Below the pieces are notes generated by a model. The model saw nothing but the letters and a program-made list of their open reading frames with translations. It did no database searches and was not told the DNA's origin. A stretch of DNA of 18,033 nucleotides from Candidatus Hydrogenedentes bacterium CG07_land_8_20_14_0_80_42_17 (lineage in GTDB: Bacteria; UBA8481): contig PEWQ01000179.1 in the NCBI GenBank assembly GCA_002780065.1, positions 7,802-25,834 of the forward strand, written 5' to 3'. A program made the translations under genes and the position numbers. Positions within the stretch are counted from its first letter, which is position 1; each line of letters starts with the position of its first letter. Shown piece after piece: positions 5,603 through 18,033 of this stretch.

Positions 5603-5892
5603 TTTAATATCACCACTGTGGCTCCATAAGAACCTTCTCTTGTACCGGCAAATTCATAACTCGAAACTGCAGGATTAGATTCAAGATAACGCCAGACTTC
5701 TCTCTGAACTCTTCCTGAACCTTTTCCGTGTATGACAACTAATCTTTCGAGATCATTGATTATCGCTCTGTCGATGAATTTAGATAATAACTCTTCGACC
5801 TCATGTACTCTTTTCTCATGGAGATCCAATCGCGTTTCAGTCTTCACATCTTGCATTTCGAGCGTATAAGTTTCTCTTTTAATTTTTACCAT
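5599..5892 (-). CDS. Stand-alone Smr-domain protein
   Basis: A 97-residue protein that is essentially a single Smr domain, the fold found at the C-terminus of MutS2 and in small MutS-related proteins. Smr domains are nucleases or nucleic-acid-binding modules acting on branched DNA or on collided ribosomes/mRNA. Seen: the LDLHEKRVHEVEELL motif (usual LDLHG.R), the VVIHGKGSGRVQREV motif (usual IIHGKGTG) and a C-terminal EGSYGATVVIL end (usual GG.GAT.V). Both conserved histidines are present. No MutS ATPase domain is attached. AGGA lies about 10 bases upstream of the ATG. The gene sits 35 bp after the HIT gene and overlaps the FtsA-like gene by ATGA. The G-to-E change in LDLHE is a small departure from the consensus. 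Confidence 0.88.
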   Translation of the reverse strand: MVKIKRETYTLEMQDVKTETRLDLHEKRVHEVEELLSKFIDRAIINDLERLVVIHGKGSGRVQREVWRYLESNPAVSSYEFAGTREGSYGATVVILK

Positions 5893-5927
5893 TTCTTTTC
5901 ATTCCTATTTTATCAGGATATTTTGAA

Positions 5928-6269
5928 TCAACCCGGAGGCCAGAGAAGTTTTCTGCCGCCGAGAATATGAAAATGAATATGTTCGATCTCCTGTCCGGCG
6001 TCTTGCCCCTGATTCATAACAACTCTGAATCCTGTAGAGTTTATGCCGGCGACTTCGGATACTTTTGCTATGGCTTCGAATAAATCTTTGCCTAAAATCG
6101 ATATTCCTTTAAGGTCAGCGACATGCTCCTTCGGAATCGCAAGGAGATGAACAGGCGCTTTTGAACTGATGTCTTTGAAGACCAGAATCTTTTCTGTTTC
6201 TAAAACTTTTTCTGCTGGAATTGAACCTTTGACTATTTTGCAAAATATGCAGTTTTCAATTTCAGGCAT
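5928..6269 (-). CDS. HIT family protein (HinT-like nucleotide hydrolase)
   Basis: A 113-residue histidine-triad protein. HinT-type members hydrolyse purine nucleoside phosphoramidates in the cytoplasm. Seen: N-terminal CIFCKIVKGSIPAEKV, a KDISSKAPVHLLAIPKEH strand-helix segment, and the catalytic triad motif in EHIHFHILGG (HxHxH) near the C-terminus, followed by W-PPG. Length is typical. The N-terminal C-x-x-C is intact, while the second metal-binding pair found in some members was not checked. The ATG is preceded by AAGGA at about 9 bases. It is the first gene of the leftward group HIT-smr-ftsA-like-dnaG-rpoD, with a promoter candidate about 100 bp upstream. Confidence 0.94.
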   Translation of the reverse strand: MPEIENCIFCKIVKGSIPAEKVLETEKILVFKDISSKAPVHLLAIPKEHVADLKGISILGKDLFEAIAKVSEVAGINSTGFRVVMNQGQDAGQEIEHIHFHILGGRKLLWPPG

Positions 6270-6341
6270 TTAAAAATTTCCTTTTCAATTCTTAAAAATT
6301 CCGCTTTCGAACTTTGCAACTGAAATGTCCGAAGTGGGCAT

Positions 6342-6392
6342 AATTAATGATTAATTTTGATTAACCCTATAATTTTATTGCATATAACCCTA
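6342..6392. promoter_or_regulatory. Direct repeats and dyad around the -10 element (possible operator)
   Basis: TAACCCTA occurs at 6362-6369 and again at 6385-6392, 23 bp apart, on both sides of the proposed -10 element. Just downstream is a perfect dyad, AATTAA-TGA-TTAATT, at 6342-6356. Either could bind a regulator of the operon, but the region is AT-rich, so the dyad may be chance. No regulator is identifiable. Confidence 0.25.
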
Positions 6393-6401
6393 CTTTTTCA
6401 A
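6372..6401 (-). promoter_or_regulatory. Candidate sigma-70 promoter for the HIT-smr-ftsA-like-dnaG-rpoD group
   Basis: On the minus strand TTGAAA (6401-6396) and TAAAAT (6377-6372) are separated by 18 bases, matching the -35 and -10 hexamers at 5 of 6 each. Predicted start is near 6365, giving a leader of about 95 bases to the HIT ATG. It lies in the only sizeable gap (178 bp) between rsmE and the HIT gene. Prediction from sequence only. Confidence 0.5.
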
Positions 6402-6447
6402 GTGGTTGAGCAAAAAAAGTTCTTATTTTAACTAATTGAGGATAATT

Positions 6448-7203
6448 TTATTGAATTGAAAGGTATAATTTCGAGCAAAAACAGGCTATTATTGCCGCCG
6501 TTTCGGTTCTGAATGTCGAAGCTCCAATTGAAATTCCATTACTTCTGCCGGATAAAAAGTTAATCTCCGTATCAGACCATCCGCCTTCGGGGCCGATGAG
6601 AATCAGAAGCTCTTTGCAATTCGGCTCGGTCTGTGTATCTCCTAAAATCTTTTTGAAATCACATCCTTCGGGATCGAGATGCCATATATTCGAATAAATT
6701 TCATTTTCTTCAAAGATAGACGGAAGATTATTTTTTACTTTGGAAATTTCGGCAGGCCGGCACGCGCCTGATTGAAGCGCCGCCGAGATTGCAATGCGTT
6801 GCCATCTTTCATGGCGGTTTTGCGAGACTGATTTAATTTTAGAGCGGTCTGCAATAAACGGTATTATTTTTTTTATTCCGAATTCGCAGATCTTTTCTAT
6901 TGCCATATCCATGCGCTCATTTTTTATTAAAGCCAGACCTAAAGATATTGGAAGAATGGCAGAATGTTTAGCGATCAGATTTGCAGGTTCGAGCAGAACA
7001 TGATCAGAAGAAAACTCTACGATTCGGCATGCAAACTCATTTCCGTCTCTGTCTGTCACGCTGATGTAATCACCTGCAACGAGCCGCAGCACGTTTTTAA
7101 TTTTATGGTAACTATCTGTTCGAAATTCGAAATTATCTTTTTCAATATTTCCGTCAAAGTAAAACCTTCGCGCCGAAGGTAATTTATCTTTAATTTTGCT
7201 CAT
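6448..7203 (-). CDS. rsmE: 16S rRNA (uracil-1498-N3)-methyltransferase RsmE
   Basis: 251 residues, SPOUT-class methyltransferase that methylates U1498 of 16S rRNA with S-adenosylmethionine. Seen: an N-terminal PUA-like barrel (RRFYFDGNI, then HKIKNVLRLVAGD), the ERMDMAIEKICEFGIKKIIPF helix, RWQRIAISAALQSGA, and the trefoil-knot motifs LIGPEGGWSDTEI at 202-214 and FRTETAAIIA at 231-240. Length is normal. The last motif reads IGASTFRTETAA, where many homologues have LG.RILR.ETA. The ATG lies 14 bases inside the prmA 3' end, so the two are probably co-translated. The prmA-rsmE pairing is common in bacteria, often after dnaJ. Confidence 0.95.
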   Translation of the reverse strand: MSKIKDKLPSARRFYFDGNIEKDNFEFRTDSYHKIKNVLRLVAGDYISVTDRDGNEFACRIVEFSSDHVLLEPANLIAKHSAILPISLGLALIKNERMDMAIEKICEFGIKKIIPFIADRSKIKSVSQNRHERWQRIAISAALQSGACRPAEISKVKNNLPSIFEENEIYSNIWHLDPEGCDFKKILGDTQTEPNCKELLILIGPEGGWSDTEINFLSGRSNGISIGASTFRTETAAIIACFCSKLYLSIQ

Positions 7204-7957
7204 TGGATATCTCTAGAGTCAGCCACGGAGTTTCATTGATATAGGCTTTTACGTTGTTCATTGGAAAAGGTTCATCATCGAGGATGCCGGAGATTATTAA
7301 AATCCCTTGAGTAGTGAGACGCTTTTTTAGTTCGGGAAGAATTGGGATAATGACAGAAGATTGGATATTTGCCGCAATCAAATCAAACTTTTGATTGGCA
7401 GACGGGAGTTGATTCGAAGATAAAAAATCTATTTCGACATTATTTATTTTTGCGTTCAATCGCGCATTATTTATTGCATCAGGATCCTGCTCGATTGCGA
7501 AGACTTTTTGAGTTCCAAGCTTTTTTGCCGCAATCGCCAGAATTCCGCTGCCGGAACCAAAATCAAGGAAAGAAGATTCACGAGAAATATTTTTCTGAAT
7601 CAACGCCAAACAGCCTCGAGTAGTGGGATGCTCACCCGTTCCGAAACCCATTCCGGGATCGATCACGATTGTAATTGAATTTTCGGAAACGCTTTCTTTT
7701 GCCAGCCACGGAGGCAAAACTGTTATAGTTCCAATACTAGTCGGCTTGATCTTTTTTTTCCATTCTTTACTCCAGTCGCATTCTTCAATTATTTCTGAAG
7801 ATGAGCCGGCAATGCCTGTAAGCCGCGAGACATCCTGAGTCATTGAAAAGAATACTTCGATTCGATCGTCTAATTCATATATTCCTAAAAACTGCTCATC
7901 ATATATTTTCTGAAGGTTTGAATCAGAAAGCGGCATAGATAATTTTTTGTATTTCAT
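7190..7957 (-). CDS. prmA: Ribosomal protein L11 methyltransferase PrmA
   Basis: 255 residues. Trimethylates ribosomal protein L11 using S-adenosylmethionine. Seen: the linker motif DWSKEWKKKIKP at 61-72, the family signature DPGMGFGTGEHPTTRGC at 100-116, SAM motif I FLDFGSGSGILAIAA at 130-144, IEQDPDAINNAR as motif II, and ANIQSS as motif IV. It is shorter than typical PrmA (about 290-310), mostly through a reduced N-terminal substrate-binding domain. The frame could begin one codon earlier at TTG 7960, but ATG 7957 is adjacent and more likely. No strong ribosome binding site is seen. It starts 12 bases after dnaJ and overlaps rsmE. Confidence 0.93.
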   Translation of the reverse strand: MKYKKLSMPLSDSNLQKIYDEQFLGIYELDDRIEVFFSMTQDVSRLTGIAGSSSEIIEECDWSKEWKKKIKPTSIGTITVLPPWLAKESVSENSITIVIDPGMGFGTGEHPTTRGCLALIQKNISRESSFLDFGSGSGILAIAAKKLGTQKVFAIEQDPDAINNARLNAKINNVEIDFLSSNQLPSANQKFDLIAANIQSSVIIPILPELKKRLTTQGILIISGILDDEPFPMNNVKAYINETPWLTLEISNEQN

Positions 7958-7969
7958 CAAGTTATTCTA

Positions 7970-9142
7970 TTAAGAGCCGAATAAATCCGACACTTTTTGA
8001 AAGAACCCTTTAACTTTAACGTTACTCTCGCTCTTTAGAGCTTGAAGTTCTACGAGCAACTCTTTTTCTCTTTTAGAAATCCTTGAAGGTATTTCTATTT
8101 CGACCCGGACAAGCAAATCTCCAATTCTTTTTGGATTGTGAAGATCGGGAAGCCCGTATCCTTTGACTCGAAATATTGTGTTAGTATCCGTGCCGGCAGG
8201 AATTTTTATCTTGGACTTAAGTGTTTTTCCGCCAGCGCCTTTTTTTAGTGTAGGCACTTCTATTTCACTTCCAAGCACTAACTGCGAATAAGTTACCGGT
8301 ACTTTGCAGATGAGATTCAAACCCTCTCGTTCAAAGATTGAATGAGGTCTAACTCTAATTACAACGTGCAGATCACCTGGCGTGCCGTTACGCGGGCCAA
8401 CATCGCCTTCGCCTCGAAGCCGTAAAATACTTTCGTCTTCAATTCCTGCAGGAATTTTTACATCAAGATTTCGTTTAACCTCTTCGCGGCCTTCGCCTTT
8501 GCAATCAGGGCACGGTTCTTTTAAAACCTGTCCTCTGCCTTGACATTTCGAACATGTTTCGACCGTTGAAAAATGTCCGAAAAATGTTTGCTGAGTTTGC
8601 CTTACCTGGCCGTGTCCGTCGCATGTAGAACATTTGACGGAAGAAGTTCCGGGTTTAGCTCCGGAGCCTGAGCATGTACCGCAGGTTTCTAATCGCGTTA
8701 TCTTAAGATTTACTTCTGCTCCGCGCGCCGCCGCATCGAAATCGAGCGTGACGCTGGTCCTTAAGTCATCGCCTCTGATGCTTTCCGATCTTCTAAAGCC
8801 GCCACCCATTCCACCTAAAAAGTCGTCGAATACTGAGCCTCCGAATCCGCCGCCGCCGAAAATGCTTTTGAACAGATCAAACGGGTCAACCTGAGTGTAA
8901 GCTCCGCCAGCCGAACGCTGTTCAAAAGCGGAATGCCCGAATCTGTCATATTGAGCGCGCTTTTCCGGATCCGAGAGAATTGCGTATGCTGTTGAAATTT
9001 CTTTAAATTTTTCTTCCGCCTCTTTGTTGCCGGGATTTTTGTCCGGATGATAACGCATGGCTAACCGTCGATATTCTTTTTTTATCTCGTCAATACTTGC
9101 GTCTTTGTTGACTCCTAGTATTTCATAATAATCGCGAGGCAT
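7970..9142 (-). CDS. dnaJ: Chaperone protein DnaJ (type I Hsp40)
   Basis: 390 residues. Co-chaperone that delivers unfolded proteins to DnaK and stimulates its ATPase. Seen: a J domain with the HPD tripeptide ([10 protein letters not shown], about 31-40), a glycine/phenylalanine-rich linker with FGGGGFGG, four zinc-finger repeats of CxxCxGxG type ([32 protein letters not shown]), then two beta-barrel substrate-binding domains and a C-terminal dimerisation segment. All four zinc repeats are complete. AGGAAAT precedes the ATG, and only 2 bases separate it from the grpE stop. dnaK, which normally lies between grpE and dnaJ, is absent here. Confidence 0.97.
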
Positions 9143-9766: not shown

Positions 9767-10576
9767 CTAATGGATTTTTATTTCCGCTGCACCGCCGCCG
9801 ACTAATCCGAAGTCGTTGATTTCAGGAAGCATATTCTTGGGTTTATTTTCGATATGAGTTCTAATGAATTGACCGGTCAGCCGCGCTTGGGCATTTAGGC
9901 CGGTTGATTTGAATGCAGCGAACCCTTTTATTTTTGCCCTGTTGCCTTCGATATCCTCTAACATCGCAACATAATAAACCTTTTCTTCTTTGAAACTCAT
10001 AAGTGAATCCATCGGCGATAGAGAAGCTTTATCGTTAACTTTCAAAATTGAAGGCTCAGTAATTTTCCATGCTTTAATTGCATAACTTGGAACATCAGAG
10101 TCTCCTGAACTCCAGATTATAACATTTTGCCCGGGCTTAAAATCTGAATAGGCTTTCAACGCAAAGGATACATCTTTAAGATTTAGTTGGTCTACCGGCC
10201 CTCCGCCTTTAATTGATACTTCGGCTGTAGAACTCGCTTCAAATTTCATAGACCTACTGCCGAATATCCATGCCACGTAAGCAGTGACTTCGGATATGAC
10301 AGAGACCTTCATTGATTTGCCGTCAGGGCTGAGAGAAATATATTCAGGTTTCGGAGTTAGACCGCGGCTTTTCAAAACCGTCAGCGCGGCATCACGGGCA
10401 TCTTTGAGCTTATACGGGAGAAATTTTGCTCCGGCTTCTGCCGCAATTTTCACATCGCGTTCGAGCGAAACTCTTGCTGAATACGACTGCCAAACATCCC
10501 AAAAGAGTCCGAGCAGAAAGAAAAGCCCAACTACTCCGCCAATTAGCCATGACACTCTCATATTTTTAGAAGCCAT
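9767..10576 (-). CDS. Membrane-anchored protein, possibly TadE/TadG-like
   Basis: 269 residues. One N-terminal membrane segment at about 8-27 (VSWLIGGVVGLFFLLGLFW) is followed by SARVSLERDVKIAAEAGAKFL. A short N-terminal anchor followed by an alanine-rich AAEAGAKFLP helix resembles TadE/TadG pilus-assembly proteins, where it precedes an exported beta-rich domain. Here the rest (about 90-269) is predicted beta-rich, with VSVISEVTAYVAWIFGSRSMKFEASSTAEV matching the TadG style. The assignment is tentative; no other pilus gene is present. Start ATG 10576 has GGAG about 9 bases upstream. A GTG at 10591 in the same frame is less likely. A promoter candidate lies just upstream, and grpE follows 64 bases after the stop, so it may head the grpE-dnaJ-prmA-rsmE group. 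Confidence 0.6.
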   Translation of the reverse strand: MASKNMRVSWLIGGVVGLFFLLGLFWDVWQSYSARVSLERDVKIAAEAGAKFLPYKLKDARDAALTVLKSRGLTPKPEYISLSPDGKSMKVSVISEVTAYVAWIFGSRSMKFEASSTAEVSIKGGGPVDQLNLKDVSFALKAYSDFKPGQNVIIWSSGDSDVPSYAIKAWKITEPSILKVNDKASLSPMDSLMSFKEEKVYYVAMLEDIEGNRAKIKGFAAFKSTGLNAQARLTGQFIRTHIENKPKNMLPEINDFGLVGGGAAEIKIH

Positions 10577-10602
10577 AAATTTACTCTCCACATGTCTACT
10601 AG

Positions 10603-10640: not shown

Positions 10641-10706
10641 TATAGAAAAATCGAAAAGATAAAATTTTCAATTTGCACTTTCAATTTGCACTTTCAAATA
10701 TACTGC
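10641..10706. repeat. AT-rich dispersed repeat, copy R1
   Basis: It shares the core AAAATTTTCAATTTGCACTTT with copies at 13591 and 17982. Here the 13-bp unit CAATTTGCACTTT is present twice in tandem (10669-10681, 10682-10694), followed by CAAATATA as in R2. The left arm GAAAAATCGAAAAGAT is a shortened form of the arm in R2 and R3. No coding potential beyond spurious frames. It lies between the phospholipase D-family gene and the TadG-like gene, in a 192-bp gap. Confidence 0.8.
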
Positions 10707-10768: not shown

Positions 10769-11980
10769 TCAATGAATCGTAATGAGATCTTCCACTCGAC
10801 ATTTTCGGGTTGTATCTGATTGAGCAATTGGTGTTAGATTCTCCAAAGTTTTTAAGTATCGAGTTAATACTGTTCCCATTTCATGACTCTTTCCTAAAAA
10901 TGAAACCTCTTTATTGAATCTAATAGAGGCAACTGTCCAGTTATGACTTCCAGTCAAAAAAACTTCTGAATCTCCTACAACGCATTTTACGTGGTGAGTC
11001 TGATCACTTCTATCGAATGATGAGTTTATTCCCATGCGTAAGAGAACTCTCATGCTTTCCTGATTTTCATGAAACGCTTCACCTTCTTGATTGATATTCA
11101 TTTGATCCATGATAACTGTCATCAACATTCCTGAATCGATTTTACTTTGAATATGCGTCATGATGGGATCCAAAAGATTTCCTTTTCCGATAGCGCGAGG
11201 CGAAACGTAATACATGCCTGCATTGATGCTATGTGCAGATGCTAAAACCAAGGTATTAAACGCGTCAAAATAATCTCCATCCATGACTATTCTTCCTCGA
11301 CAGGAAATATAATGAATTTTGCTCAATTGATTATTATCTACAGTCATAGCTATTGGTACAATTATCTCCGGTATTGTCGTATCGATTTTAAATGGCTGAG
11401 CTTGCAAAAATAAAACATCAAAACGTTTCGACCATTCTATAAAGGCCGAAGGCTTACTTTTAAGAATAAGCGATAATTCTTTATTCTTATCTAACGCTGC
11501 ATTGCTCCAGTTATGACTTCCCATAATGAGTAGTGAGTCGTCAATCATAATTGCTTTATCATGAAGCTTAGTGTTTTGGTCATCGAGATGAGCATCTCCA
11601 CCGCAATTATTGATCGCGCTTACCCAAATGAAATTATCAGTCACGCAATCTTCGAAGAGTGCTCTGATTCTTACTCCACGTCTAGACGCATTCATCAAAG
11701 CGGTTAGCAGAAGCGCACTCGAACCCTTCGGTTCTTGAGCCATAAACATTGATACATCAATTGTGCGTTGCGCTGAATTAATCAACGAAATAACGGCATC
11801 CATGTATTCACTATCTCTCAGTGCCGCAACTTGAAACTCAAACGGAAAAGGATTTTTTTCAGCCGGTTCTAAATATCGTTTAGAGATGCGTCGAGAGCTG
11901 TCTTGTGCAATCGACCAGCGCCAGATTAACAGAATAGCCAGAAATATGAGAAATAAGATGGCGTGTCTTTTGGCGTTCAC
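10769..11980 (-). CDS. Membrane-anchored phospholipase D-family protein with two HKD motifs
   Basis: 403 residues. The N-terminus has a signal-anchor (AILFLIFLAILLIWRW, about 7-22), so the catalytic part is probably outside the cytoplasmic membrane. Two complete HxKx4D motifs are present: H140-K142-D147 (HDKAIMID) and H330-K332-D337 (HVKCVVGD). Each is followed by GSHNW and an NKE segment, the internal duplication of the PLD superfamily, which includes phospholipases, cardiolipin synthases and Nuc-type endonucleases. Substrate cannot be told from sequence. Start GTG 11980 is the only reasonable codon before the anchor, and its ribosome binding site is weak. It follows the coiled-coil gene by 25 bases and probably shares a transcript with it. 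It is the last gene of a three-gene block of secreted or anchored proteins. Confidence 0.85.
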   Translation of the reverse strand: MNAKRHAILFLIFLAILLIWRWSIAQDSSRRISKRYLEPAEKNPFPFEFQVAALRDSEYMDAVISLINSAQRTIDVSMFMAQEPKGSSALLLTALMNASRRGVRIRALFEDCVTDNFIWVSAINNCGGDAHLDDQNTKLHDKAIMIDDSLLIMGSHNWSNAALDKNKELSLILKSKPSAFIEWSKRFDVLFLQAQPFKIDTTIPEIIVPIAMTVDNNQLSKIHYISCRGRIVMDGDYFDAFNTLVLASAHSINAGMYYVSPRAIGKGNLLDPIMTHIQSKIDSGMLMTVIMDQMNINQEGEAFHENQESMRVLLRMGINSSFDRSDQTHHVKCVVGDSEVFLTGSHNWTVASIRFNKEVSFLGKSHEMGTVLTRYLKTLENLTPIAQSDTTRKCRVEDLITIH

Positions 11981-12005
11981 TCTATAAGTTTCAGGAGGCG
12001 GTTGC

Positions 12006-12869
12006 CTAATTCATGGAAGCTTCGTTCATGGCTTTTAGTCTTTGCTTTAATGCGGCCATCTCTGTGTCGCCTTCATGATGGATTGATTGAACAACCTCGC
12101 TCAACTCGCGCATCTGTGTGAAGAGCTCCGCTCTCTCTATACTCAATTGTTTGCTTCGTTCTTCAAGCCGCTTTCGTCGCTCATCCCCGCGTGGATAACG
12201 ATTCATCTCGGCTCGTATTGATTTTGCTTCTTGACCAAGAATTTTCTCTTTATCCATTAAGTAATGCCACTCTGCCATCACCTCATCTATACGCTTTTTT
12301 CTTTCCTGAAAAACTACCTTTCTGGCGAGCAACTGTTTCGCATTGTTGATGCTATTCTCGATAAGTTTAAGTGTTGTAGGCTCTATACCGGGAACACTAC
12401 GAAGTCGTTCGAATCTTGCAATCCCCGTCTCGTCATTCGTCCCAGCTATCATCACCAGTGCAACTGCTGTTGGATATTTATTTGCACCTTCTGTAAAAAG
12501 AGCACGGCTCTTGGTTTCTCGTTCCTCAGAATCACCATAATTATCAGATGCCAAGAGCATAAGTTCTCCAGCCATAAAATAAATTCCAGCGTCAGCCGAC
12601 CCTTCATGAATTTTTCTGAGAAATACAGGCAAAGCAGAATCTGGGTTCCGTTGGCTAATCAATAGAGCATTGGTCACTTCAGTATCGTACGCATCGGAGA
12701 ACGGATTGGCGCATGCAGTTAGCATTCCATTGCTTTGCATTTTCGTACCAATGCGAACTAAATTTACAAGTGGATTGTTTCGAATATATTTATAGTACAC
12801 ACTGTATCCTACGCTTCCTATCAAACATACCAAAATTGCAATAATCCAAATACGCTTACGATTCATCAT
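12006..12869 (-). CDS. Membrane-anchored coiled-coil protein, unknown function
   Basis: I do not recognise this 287-residue protein. Seen: a membrane segment at about 7-25 (IWIIAILVCLIGSVGYSVYY); a middle helical part at 60-180 with alternating short helices, such as SALPVFLRKIHEG, that could be TPR- or Sel1-like but lacks clear repeat consensus; and a strongly charged coiled coil at about 185-285 (KRLEERSKQLSIERAELF). C15 in the membrane segment does not sit in a convincing lipobox, so a lipoprotein is unlikely. Its ATG overlaps the stop of the upstream secreted protein as ATGA, so the two are probably made together. ATG 12866 directly after 12869 is an equally possible start. It may be an envelope scaffold, but that is inference from topology. 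Confidence 0.75.
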   Translation of the reverse strand: MMNRKRIWIIAILVCLIGSVGYSVYYKYIRNNPLVNLVRIGTKMQSNGMLTACANPFSDAYDTEVTNALLISQRNPDSALPVFLRKIHEGSADAGIYFMAGELMLLASDNYGDSEERETKSRALFTEGANKYPTAVALVMIAGTNDETGIARFERLRSVPGIEPTTLKLIENSINNAKQLLARKVVFQERKKRIDEVMAEWHYLMDKEKILGQEAKSIRAEMNRYPRGDERRKRLEERSKQLSIERAELFTQMRELSEVVQSIHHEGDTEMAALKQRLKAMNEASMN

Positions 12870-13474
12870 AACGACTCACAATAAGCGAGATCATCTTGTG
12901 CGACAGCTAGTTCGCTTTCTTTATCATCCAACATGTTAAGTGCATCATACATAGCGCTTTGTGCCTCCTCAGTTGCATTTTCAGCAGCTTCTAATTCATT
13001 AGCCGCAATGACGAGCTCCGATTGAGCATTTGCAACCTCACCAGCATAATAATGCTCAATGTTTCTCGCAACGGATGCTGCTATCAATAACGCCGTTGCA
13101 ATCGCACTTGCACTTTTACAAGCCGCAGGGACATAGTAACATGTCACACCTGCGGCCAATTGAGCATCTTCCGCCGCCTGTTCAGCGAGATCAGCCTCAT
13201 TATCGGCCTGATCATGTGCAATAACCGCCGCAAAATAATCATTAGTCTTCTGATCATAGTTGAGCTGAAATACCTCTTGCGCTTGCAGTGCATTGAATAA
13301 TGCGGCATTAGCCACTTGCACAGCTTCTTCAGCAACTGCAACTGCGGCTTCAGCATCATTGACTGCATCTTCTTCTGCAGAACAGTCGGCGGCAACAATT
13401 GGTTGAGTTATTCCTGCCAAACTAAAAACAATCGTAGTAGCAATCCACAATACACATATGATTCTATCACTCAT
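12866..13474 (-). CDS. Secreted alanine-rich helical hairpin protein with four symmetric cysteines
   Basis: 202 residues, unrecognised. A signal peptide (about 1-29, ending PIVAA-D) precedes a highly acidic, alanine-rich helical protein. The mature part contains only four cysteines: C31, C112, C119 and C199. Their positions are mirror-symmetric about residue 115, as expected for an antiparallel helix pair closed by one disulfide at the open end (C31-C199) and one at the turn (C112-C119, in CYYVPAAC). Heptad-like spacing of A, V and L in both arms supports a coiled-coil hairpin. This is inference from sequence. The start ATG has no recognisable Shine-Dalgarno sequence; TTGACA at 13505-13500 lies too close to it for standard promoter spacing. 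It is the first gene of the three-gene block and overlaps the next gene by ATGA. Confidence 0.72.
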   Translation of the reverse strand: MSDRIICVLWIATTIVFSLAGITQPIVAADCSAEEDAVNDAEAAVAVAEEAVQVANAALFNALQAQEVFQLNYDQKTNDYFAAVIAHDQADNEADLAEQAAEDAQLAAGVTCYYVPAACKSASAIATALLIAASVARNIEHYYAGEVANAQSELVIAANELEAAENATEEAQSAMYDALNMLDDKESELAVAQDDLAYCESL

Positions 13475-13590
13475 GTTTAAGGAATACTGTTTGTTTGTTT
13501 GTCAATATATTTTTTCTGCTGAAGTTTTTTGGAAAGTCGAGAGTCGTTCCTTCATGTCCTCATCCCTGCCCCTCTTCCAAAAAGCATATA

Positions 13591-13667
13591 AAATAATTGA
13601 AAAATGAAAATTGGAAAAATCAAATTTTCAATATGCACTTTACAATTTGCAATTTCAAATATAACTG
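13591..13667. repeat. AT-rich dispersed repeat, copy R2
   Basis: AAATAATTGAAAAATGAAAA is followed by TTGGAAAAATCAAATTTTCA and two divergent copies of the CAATTTGCACTTT unit (CAATATGCACTTT, CAATTTGCAATTT), then CAAATATA. The first 30 bases (13591-13620) are identical to copy R3 at 17982 onward. Ends are approximate. Confidence 0.85.
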
Positions 13668-13676
13668 GAGACGTTA

Positions 13677-13770
13677 TGGAGGCACAGGCGCGATCGCGTC
13701 AATGGACGCCTCGCGTCAATGGACGCCTCGCCTGTGCTAGCTACGCATACTTAACCAGCACGTGCCTCCA
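13677..13770. repeat. GC-rich 94-bp element with inverted ends and 17-bp tandem repeats
   Basis: Ends are a perfect 9-bp inverted pair, TGGAGGCAC (13677-13685) and GTGCCTCCA (13762-13770). A second, nested perfect 9-bp pair is GCACAGGCG (13682-13690) with CGCCTGTGC (13729-13737). Between them the 17-bp unit CGCGTCAATGGACGCCT is repeated twice exactly (13695-13711, 13712-13728). Each unit itself contains a GCGTC-AATG-GACGC hairpin. The sequence GACGTTATGGAGGCACAG at its left edge recurs, with one change, at 17923. A structured RNA or a small non-autonomous mobile repeat is possible. It lies directly after the membrane-protein stop, so it might also act in transcript 3' processing. Confidence 0.8.
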
Positions 13771-13785
13771 GCTAGCCACAACGGG

Positions 13786-17922: not shown

Positions 17923-17970
17923 GACGTCATGGAGGCACAGACGCCACGCGTCAATGGACGCCACGCGTCA
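17923..17970. repeat. GC-rich repeat, second copy
   Basis: GACGTCATGGAGGCACAG (17923-17940) matches the left edge of the 94-bp element except one base (GACGTTATGGAGGCACAG). It is followed by the 17-bp unit CGCGTCAATGGACGCCA (17947-17963) and a partial second unit CGCGTCA. The unit differs from the 13695 copy by a terminal T to A. The right inverted arm is missing, so this copy is truncated or of another subtype. Confidence 0.8.
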
Positions 17971-17981
17971 AAGAACATGTG

Positions 17982-18033
17982 AAATAATTGAAAAATGAAA
18001 ATTGGAAAAATAAAATTTTCAATTTGCACTTTC
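17982..18033. repeat. AT-rich dispersed repeat, copy R3 (runs off the window)
   Basis: AAATAATTGAAAAATGAAAA then TTGGAAAAAT is identical to R2 over 30 bases, then AAAATTTTCAATTTGCACTTT as in R1. It continues past the window end. Here the AT-rich part follows the GC-rich part, the opposite order from R2, so the two modules are shuffled. Confidence 0.85.

Follow-up and report, generated by a model that had tools for sequence, protein, structure and literature searches.

What do three adjacent genes for exported proteins do, one of them encoding a PLD-superfamily enzyme, and do they form a system at all? The question is raised by the stretch of DNA analysed here (the window; 18,033 nucleotides, G000:C190:7802-25834), which belongs to a genome assembly (G000) of 2.39 Mb in 207 contigs that is 87% complete. 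A preliminary description had suggested that these genes could be either an undescribed envelope or DNA/lipid-processing system or an acquired defence or competition module. The trio, entirely on the minus strand, sits between the genes for prfB and a 569-aa membrane protein on one side and a TadG-like gene followed by grpE-dnaJ on the other, with flanking gaps of 311 and 177 bases. The order of transcription is P3 (202 aa), P2 (287 aa) and PLD (403 aa):

12866-13474, minus strand: open reading frame of P3, 202 aa
12866-12869, minus strand: ATGA overlap of the P3 stop and the P2 start (gap of -4), read from the sequence
12006-12869, minus strand: open reading frame of P2, 287 aa
10769-11980, minus strand: open reading frame of PLD, 403 aa, with a GTG start and two PLDc_2 domains (PF13091)

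The spacing between P2 and PLD is 25 bases. When all six frames of each gene were compared, the annotated one gave the best codon log-odds score (0.25, 0.13 and 0.16 bits per codon for the three genes), and it alone could be read without stops, the other five being interrupted. Each protein has one strong hydrophobic segment, located within residues 5-25 (Kyte-Doolittle 2.2-2.4 over 19 residues). Reading frames and coding scores agree with the earlier account of three export-type genes at 10769-13474, linked by an ATGA overlap and a 25-base gap, and the hydrophobic segments confirmed that all three proteins begin with an export or anchor segment. In GC and GC3 content the trio lies within the values spanned by 30 other genes; its least typical codons are those of P2. 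A scan of the operon for promoters and terminators found promoter-like sites to be no more frequent than in shuffled sequences, and a search of Rfam gave no match. Gene order, overlap and export segments support the view that the trio is an operon of exported or anchored proteins in an undescribed combination; the three genes are probably co-transcribed.

The last gene of the operon encodes PLD, in which three features were located:

11906-11962, minus strand: N-terminal membrane anchor or uncleaved signal segment, residues 7-25 (Kyte-Doolittle 2.39)
11510-11563, minus strand: HKD motif 1, HDKAIMIDDSLLIMGSHN, residues 140-157, followed by WS (motif search)
10940-10993, minus strand: HKD motif 2, HVKCVVGDSEVFLTGSHN, residues 330-347, followed by WT (motif search)

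Both motifs are complete (HxK(x)4D(x)6GSxN, each then followed by W[S/T]), and the double-HKD enzyme of the preliminary description was thus borne out. The PF13091 profile matched PLD in two stretches with 103.8 bits (cut-off 27, E=8e-30); each half of the protein passed the cut-off alone, and the two halves aligned to each other with E=1e-9. No lipobox cysteine was found past the hydrophobic segment, the first cysteine being residue 112. Judged by its sequence, PLD is an intact two-HKD enzyme of the PLD superfamily, and its two domains, complete HKD motifs and N-terminal hydrophobic segment predict an active phosphodiesterase located outside the cytoplasm. In enzymes of this superfamily, the histidine of one HKD attacks the phosphodiester and the other HKD contributes a histidine as general acid, and PLD would be expected to use the same two-histidine chemistry.

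Comparison with curated models placed PLD below every functional-subfamily cut-off, in the order NucT equivalog of NCBIfam (56.6 bits, cut-off 211), DrmC (NF038319; 53.0 bits, cut-off 133) and cardiolipin synthase (TIGR04265; 39.6 bits over residues 56-372, cut-off 290). A sequence search of the PDB returned MitoPLD/Zucchini and the Nuc endonuclease first. Each HKD of PLD is followed by GSHNW[S/T]..A...NKE, and the matched stretch of MitoPLD reads GSLNWT..AI..N.E, so that the GSxN then W and S/T style of Nuc and Zucchini is also that of PLD. In its motifs and best partial matches, PLD is of the Nuc/NucT/Zucchini nuclease type and not of the cardiolipin synthase type, and a nucleic acid appears somewhat likelier as its substrate than a lipid. 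The PLD nuclease NucT of Helicobacter pylori is found in the periplasm in association with the membrane and is linked to purine salvage (PMC5714352). PLD shares HKD chemistry and an N-terminal export or anchor segment with NucT, Salmonella Nuc, Zucchini/MitoPLD and PLD3; unlike PLD, NucT, Nuc and Zucchini have a single HKD and dimerise, and their similarity to it is weak and confined to single domains.

The strongest alternative starts from this last difference. In it, PLD would act on phospholipids of the envelope, as a phospholipase D or in the manner of a cardiolipin synthase, and remodel membrane lipids on the periplasmic side, with the two helical proteins serving as membrane or envelope spacers. 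Two HKDs per chain are commoner among lipid-acting PLDs, and PLD nucleases usually dimerise (PMC10783504); as PLD carries two in one chain rather than the single HKD of such nucleases, there is room for a lipid substrate. The membrane anchor and the match to the cardiolipin synthase profile point the same way, and a precedent exists in ClsO, a surface-exposed outer-membrane lipoprotein cardiolipin synthase, that is, an exported two-HKD enzyme which makes lipid (PMC12846801). Cardiolipin synthases ClsA/B/C and ClsO thus share two HKD domains per chain with PLD, and ClsO is extracytoplasmic as well. However, PLD scores far under the cut-off of that family, lacks the lipobox cysteine expected of a lipoprotein such as ClsO, and has other residues after its HKDs, namely the GSxNW[ST] motifs of the Nuc/Zucchini group. 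Moreover, PLD3/PLD4 are a known exception to the dimeric nucleases with one HKD per chain, PLD3 being a type II transmembrane 5' exonuclease with two HKD-type motifs (PMC10783504). PLD resembles PLD3 in combining a putative type II anchor with two HKD-type motifs in a single chain. The lipid reading is placed second, as a possible but less probable account.

The best full-length relative of PLD was found in an unrelated genome, G312, as an anchored protein of 401 aa (L071:6254-7459). The identity was 23% over 391 aa (E=2e-26), the alignment ran through the N-terminal hydrophobic stretch, and the two proteins were collinear along 391 alignment columns, the full length of PLD being 403 residues. 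Further relatives occurred in G094/G362, G135, G030 and G051. The G312 protein and the pair G000:C124/G001:C111 are uncharacterised anchored two-HKD proteins with the same architecture as PLD; unlike PLD, they have no P2 or P3 adjoining, and the C124/C111 pair has a lipoprotein-like look and neighbours that differ from those of PLD. Indeed, the neighbours of PLD relatives elsewhere are unrelated, and a local tblastn search beside these relatives and at the G001 loci detected neither P2 nor P3 at E<=1. In a tree of single HKD domains, both halves of PLD grouped with the C124/C111/G094/G135/G312/G030 set (99/98); since the second half was flagged as a long branch, finer placement was not used.

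The organism itself is rich in such enzymes. The PLDc_2 profile gave 14 matches in eight frames of G000 (on C15, C173, C124, C3, C129, C163, C53 and C190) and six matches in three frames of the same-order genome G001. An export-type N-terminus was present in at least five of the eight G000 frames (that of the window and those on C124, C173, C3 and C129), a count that excludes C163 and C53, while the C15 frame begins at a contig end. Because several of these frames carry export signals, an exported HKD enzyme is not special to the trio locus, but a general habit of the organism. The C15 frame (L022:2864-5998) is at least 1,044 aa long, open at the contig end, and has two PLDc_2 domains separated by a helix-hairpin-helix-like stretch; by eye, its N-terminal part resembles an N-acetylmuramoyl-L-alanine amidase and its middle part a lamin-tail domain. 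Another arrangement was noted in two genera of one family, G312 (L071:4715-7459) and G030 (L073, about 5681-8390), in which an anchored two-HKD gene is divergent to a gene for an exported HKD protein of 504-511 aa; the anchored two-HKD gene of G030 is seemingly split into two frames.

The other two proteins of the operon have the following N-terminal features:

13388-13474, minus strand: P3 signal-peptide-like segment, residues 1-29 (Kyte-Doolittle maximum 2.27 at residue 5)
12795-12851, minus strand: P2 membrane-anchor segment, residues 7-25 (Kyte-Doolittle 2.16)

The P3 segment ends in what appears by eye to be a cleavage-like site, VAA/DC. Alanine makes up 27% of the mature chain, P3 has 34 D/E against 4 K/R (pI about 4), and an AF2 model made with no alignment gave two helices (32-114 and 116-201) with a mean pLDDT of 72; P3 is therefore best described as a predicted secreted, acidic, Ala-rich helical hairpin. 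Its four mature cysteines lie symmetrically about the predicted turn at residue 115 (31+199=230, 112+119=231), an arrangement expected in about 3% of cases for random positions, and this symmetry suggests that the modelled hairpin may be stapled by Cys31-Cys199 and Cys112-Cys119. The P2 model, also made with no alignment, showed short helical repeats at about 63-156 and a long coiled-coil hairpin (164-222/230-286). Its pLDDT was about 96 for much of this hairpin but less than 50 for residues 1-60. Structure searches gave generic matches only, which were rejected as indications of kinship: for P2, the best Foldseek hit to coiled coils had E 0.07, and VIA-align Z values up to 11.3 (rmsd 11 A over 157 residues) reflected only a common arrangement of long helices; for P3, the coiled-coil arms of SMC, chemoreceptor and colicin proteins came up at E>=0.01.

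In 386 genomes, sequence searches revealed no homologue of P2 or P3 at E<=1e-4; comparisons of both with Pfam, NCBIfam, PHROGs, PADLOC and PDB sequences produced sub-threshold noise only. Neither matched in plasmids, P2 had no match in phages or in a GTDB pattern scan that reaches close relatives only, and no relative of P3 or PLD was found in viral contigs. One IMG/VR stretch was reported, without a locus, as encoding a P2 relative, and is perhaps a record of the same genome. Within the searched collections, P2 and P3 are thus single-copy orphans. The co-occurrence of the three genes at other loci, by which a system might have been recognised, was not found in any other genome (386 genomes, the GTDB scan, viral, plasmid and phage sets, one same-order genome), so the trio looks lineage-specific. 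Since the lineage is poorly sampled, with one same-order genome, this absence is weak evidence; a lineage-specific operon is nevertheless most likely, rather than a recurring system. Of the undescribed system proposed earlier, the exported three-gene operon and its novel combination stand, and recurrence, with no second copy of P2 or P3, does not.

The trio is flanked by repeats, which had been taken as a possible mark of a module:

10641-10705, no strand assigned: AT-rich repeat, downstream copy, AT-rich part only, not judged to be part of the operon
13590-13775, no strand assigned: upstream composite repeat, AT-rich part and GC-rich element

The AT-rich part of the upstream copy spans 13590-13665, so copies do lie on either side. 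A third AT-rich copy (17986-18033, within a composite repeat region at 17930-18033) ends the contig, and the window holds seven AT-rich repeats against 0.39 expected. Across the 2.39 Mb of G000, the motif has 383 matches against one for a reversed control; the AT-rich part is often tandem, in 14-base units (TTTCAATTTGCACT), and often lies at contig ends. The GC-rich element consists of two tandem 17-mers, TCGCGTCAATGGACGCC, between the inverted arms GGAGGCAC and GTGCCTCC; at least 86 matches to it were counted in G000, its RNA fold is stronger than that of shuffled sequences (z -3.5), and the two parts are often found together across the genome. These elements are dispersed intergenic repeats of a genome-wide family, and because they occur genome-wide, their presence around the trio adds little to a cassette reading or to mobility.

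The only same-order genome compared was G001 ('Ca. Hydrogenedentota bacterium isolate J006', RFFU01000078.1). By gene names assigned by eye, one of its contigs carries prfB and the membrane protein, after which come another membrane protein, trpC and ABC/FtsX genes; grpE-dnaJ are found on a different contig, preceded by rpsB-tsf-pyrH-frr-uppS-cdsA. The repeats coincide with this synteny break at the trio, and on account of the break the insertion or history of the trio is not legible from G001. The TadG-like anchored protein (274 aa, window 9767-10591), encoded between grpE and the trio, stayed below the cut-off of every Pfam, NCBIfam and PHROG family, and its gene is absent between cdsA and grpE in G001. 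A third account, in which an exported PLD and two unrelated lineage-specific exported genes share a transcript as chance neighbours with no joint function, draws on the break between repeats, on the PLD relatives that occur without P2 or P3, and on the single-copy orphan state of these two. The ATGA overlap, the 25-base gap, the common strand and the export of all three proteins speak against it, and we regard it as rather doubtful, ranking it behind the lipid reading.

If the genes formed an acquired module for competition or toxin immunity, PLD would be the exported antibacterial effector, with P3 or P2 as its periplasmic immunity protein. Two-HKD PLDs do occur as interbacterial effectors (Tle5 family), a nuclease could be inhibited by an acidic helical partner, and no counterpart was seen at the matching place in G001. 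However, PLD brings a Sec-type anchor of its own and lacks any domain for toxin delivery or for a secretion system, the window contains no ORF for an integrase or a transposase, and in composition and codon usage the trio stays inside the genome's range (P2 lowest). The flanking repeats are genome-wide, and searches of plasmid, phage and viral sets gave no usable P2 homologue and partial matches only for PLD. On this evidence, the reading of PLD as a T6SS effector was rejected, and a competition module, which found no positive support, is improbable. The suggestion of an acquired defence module fared worse: a DISARM-related anti-phage part is highly improbable, since the DrmC PADLOC models, which top the PADLOC matches of PLD (E down to 7e-16), reflect a fold and superfamily signal common to DrmC and most other PLDs, whereas PLD stays at 53 of the 133 bits of the curated cut-off, is exported, and has as neighbours prfB, grpE, dnaJ and similar genes plus orphans, with no DrmA/DrmB-like or other defence-like gene and no PADLOC model for P2 or P3.

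The reading that comes first, ahead of the envelope lipid enzyme and the chance neighbours, is that a lineage-specific operon supplies the envelope with a nuclease-like phosphodiesterase and two helical partner proteins; its probability is roughly 0.4. The N-terminal membrane helix of PLD would tether the two-HKD domain to the inner membrane on its outer side, in a type II topology. The likeliest substrate would be nucleic acid, periplasmic or from outside, and the role one of salvage or clearance, as for NucT of H. pylori. P2 and P3 may act as envelope scaffold, adaptor or regulator: P2 would be anchored beside PLD via its membrane segment, with the coiled-coil hairpin outside, and P3 would be a soluble hairpin, probably stapled by its two cysteine pairs. 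A more specific version, an envelope nuclease system in which the anchored two-HKD nuclease is held by P2 and controlled by P3, with P3, secreted, strongly acidic and stapled by disulfides, as a helical hairpin that mimics nucleic acid, is quite improbable as a whole.

For G000, these results mean that AT-rich repeats around a group of genes are no evidence of a mobile cassette, as they occur everywhere in the genome. The lineage that carries the PLD trio is deeply branching and almost unsampled. If the nuclease-like reading is confirmed, a bacterial two-HKD enzyme with a type II anchor and dedicated partners would join the few exported PLD nucleases, such as NucT and the PLD3-like enzymes.
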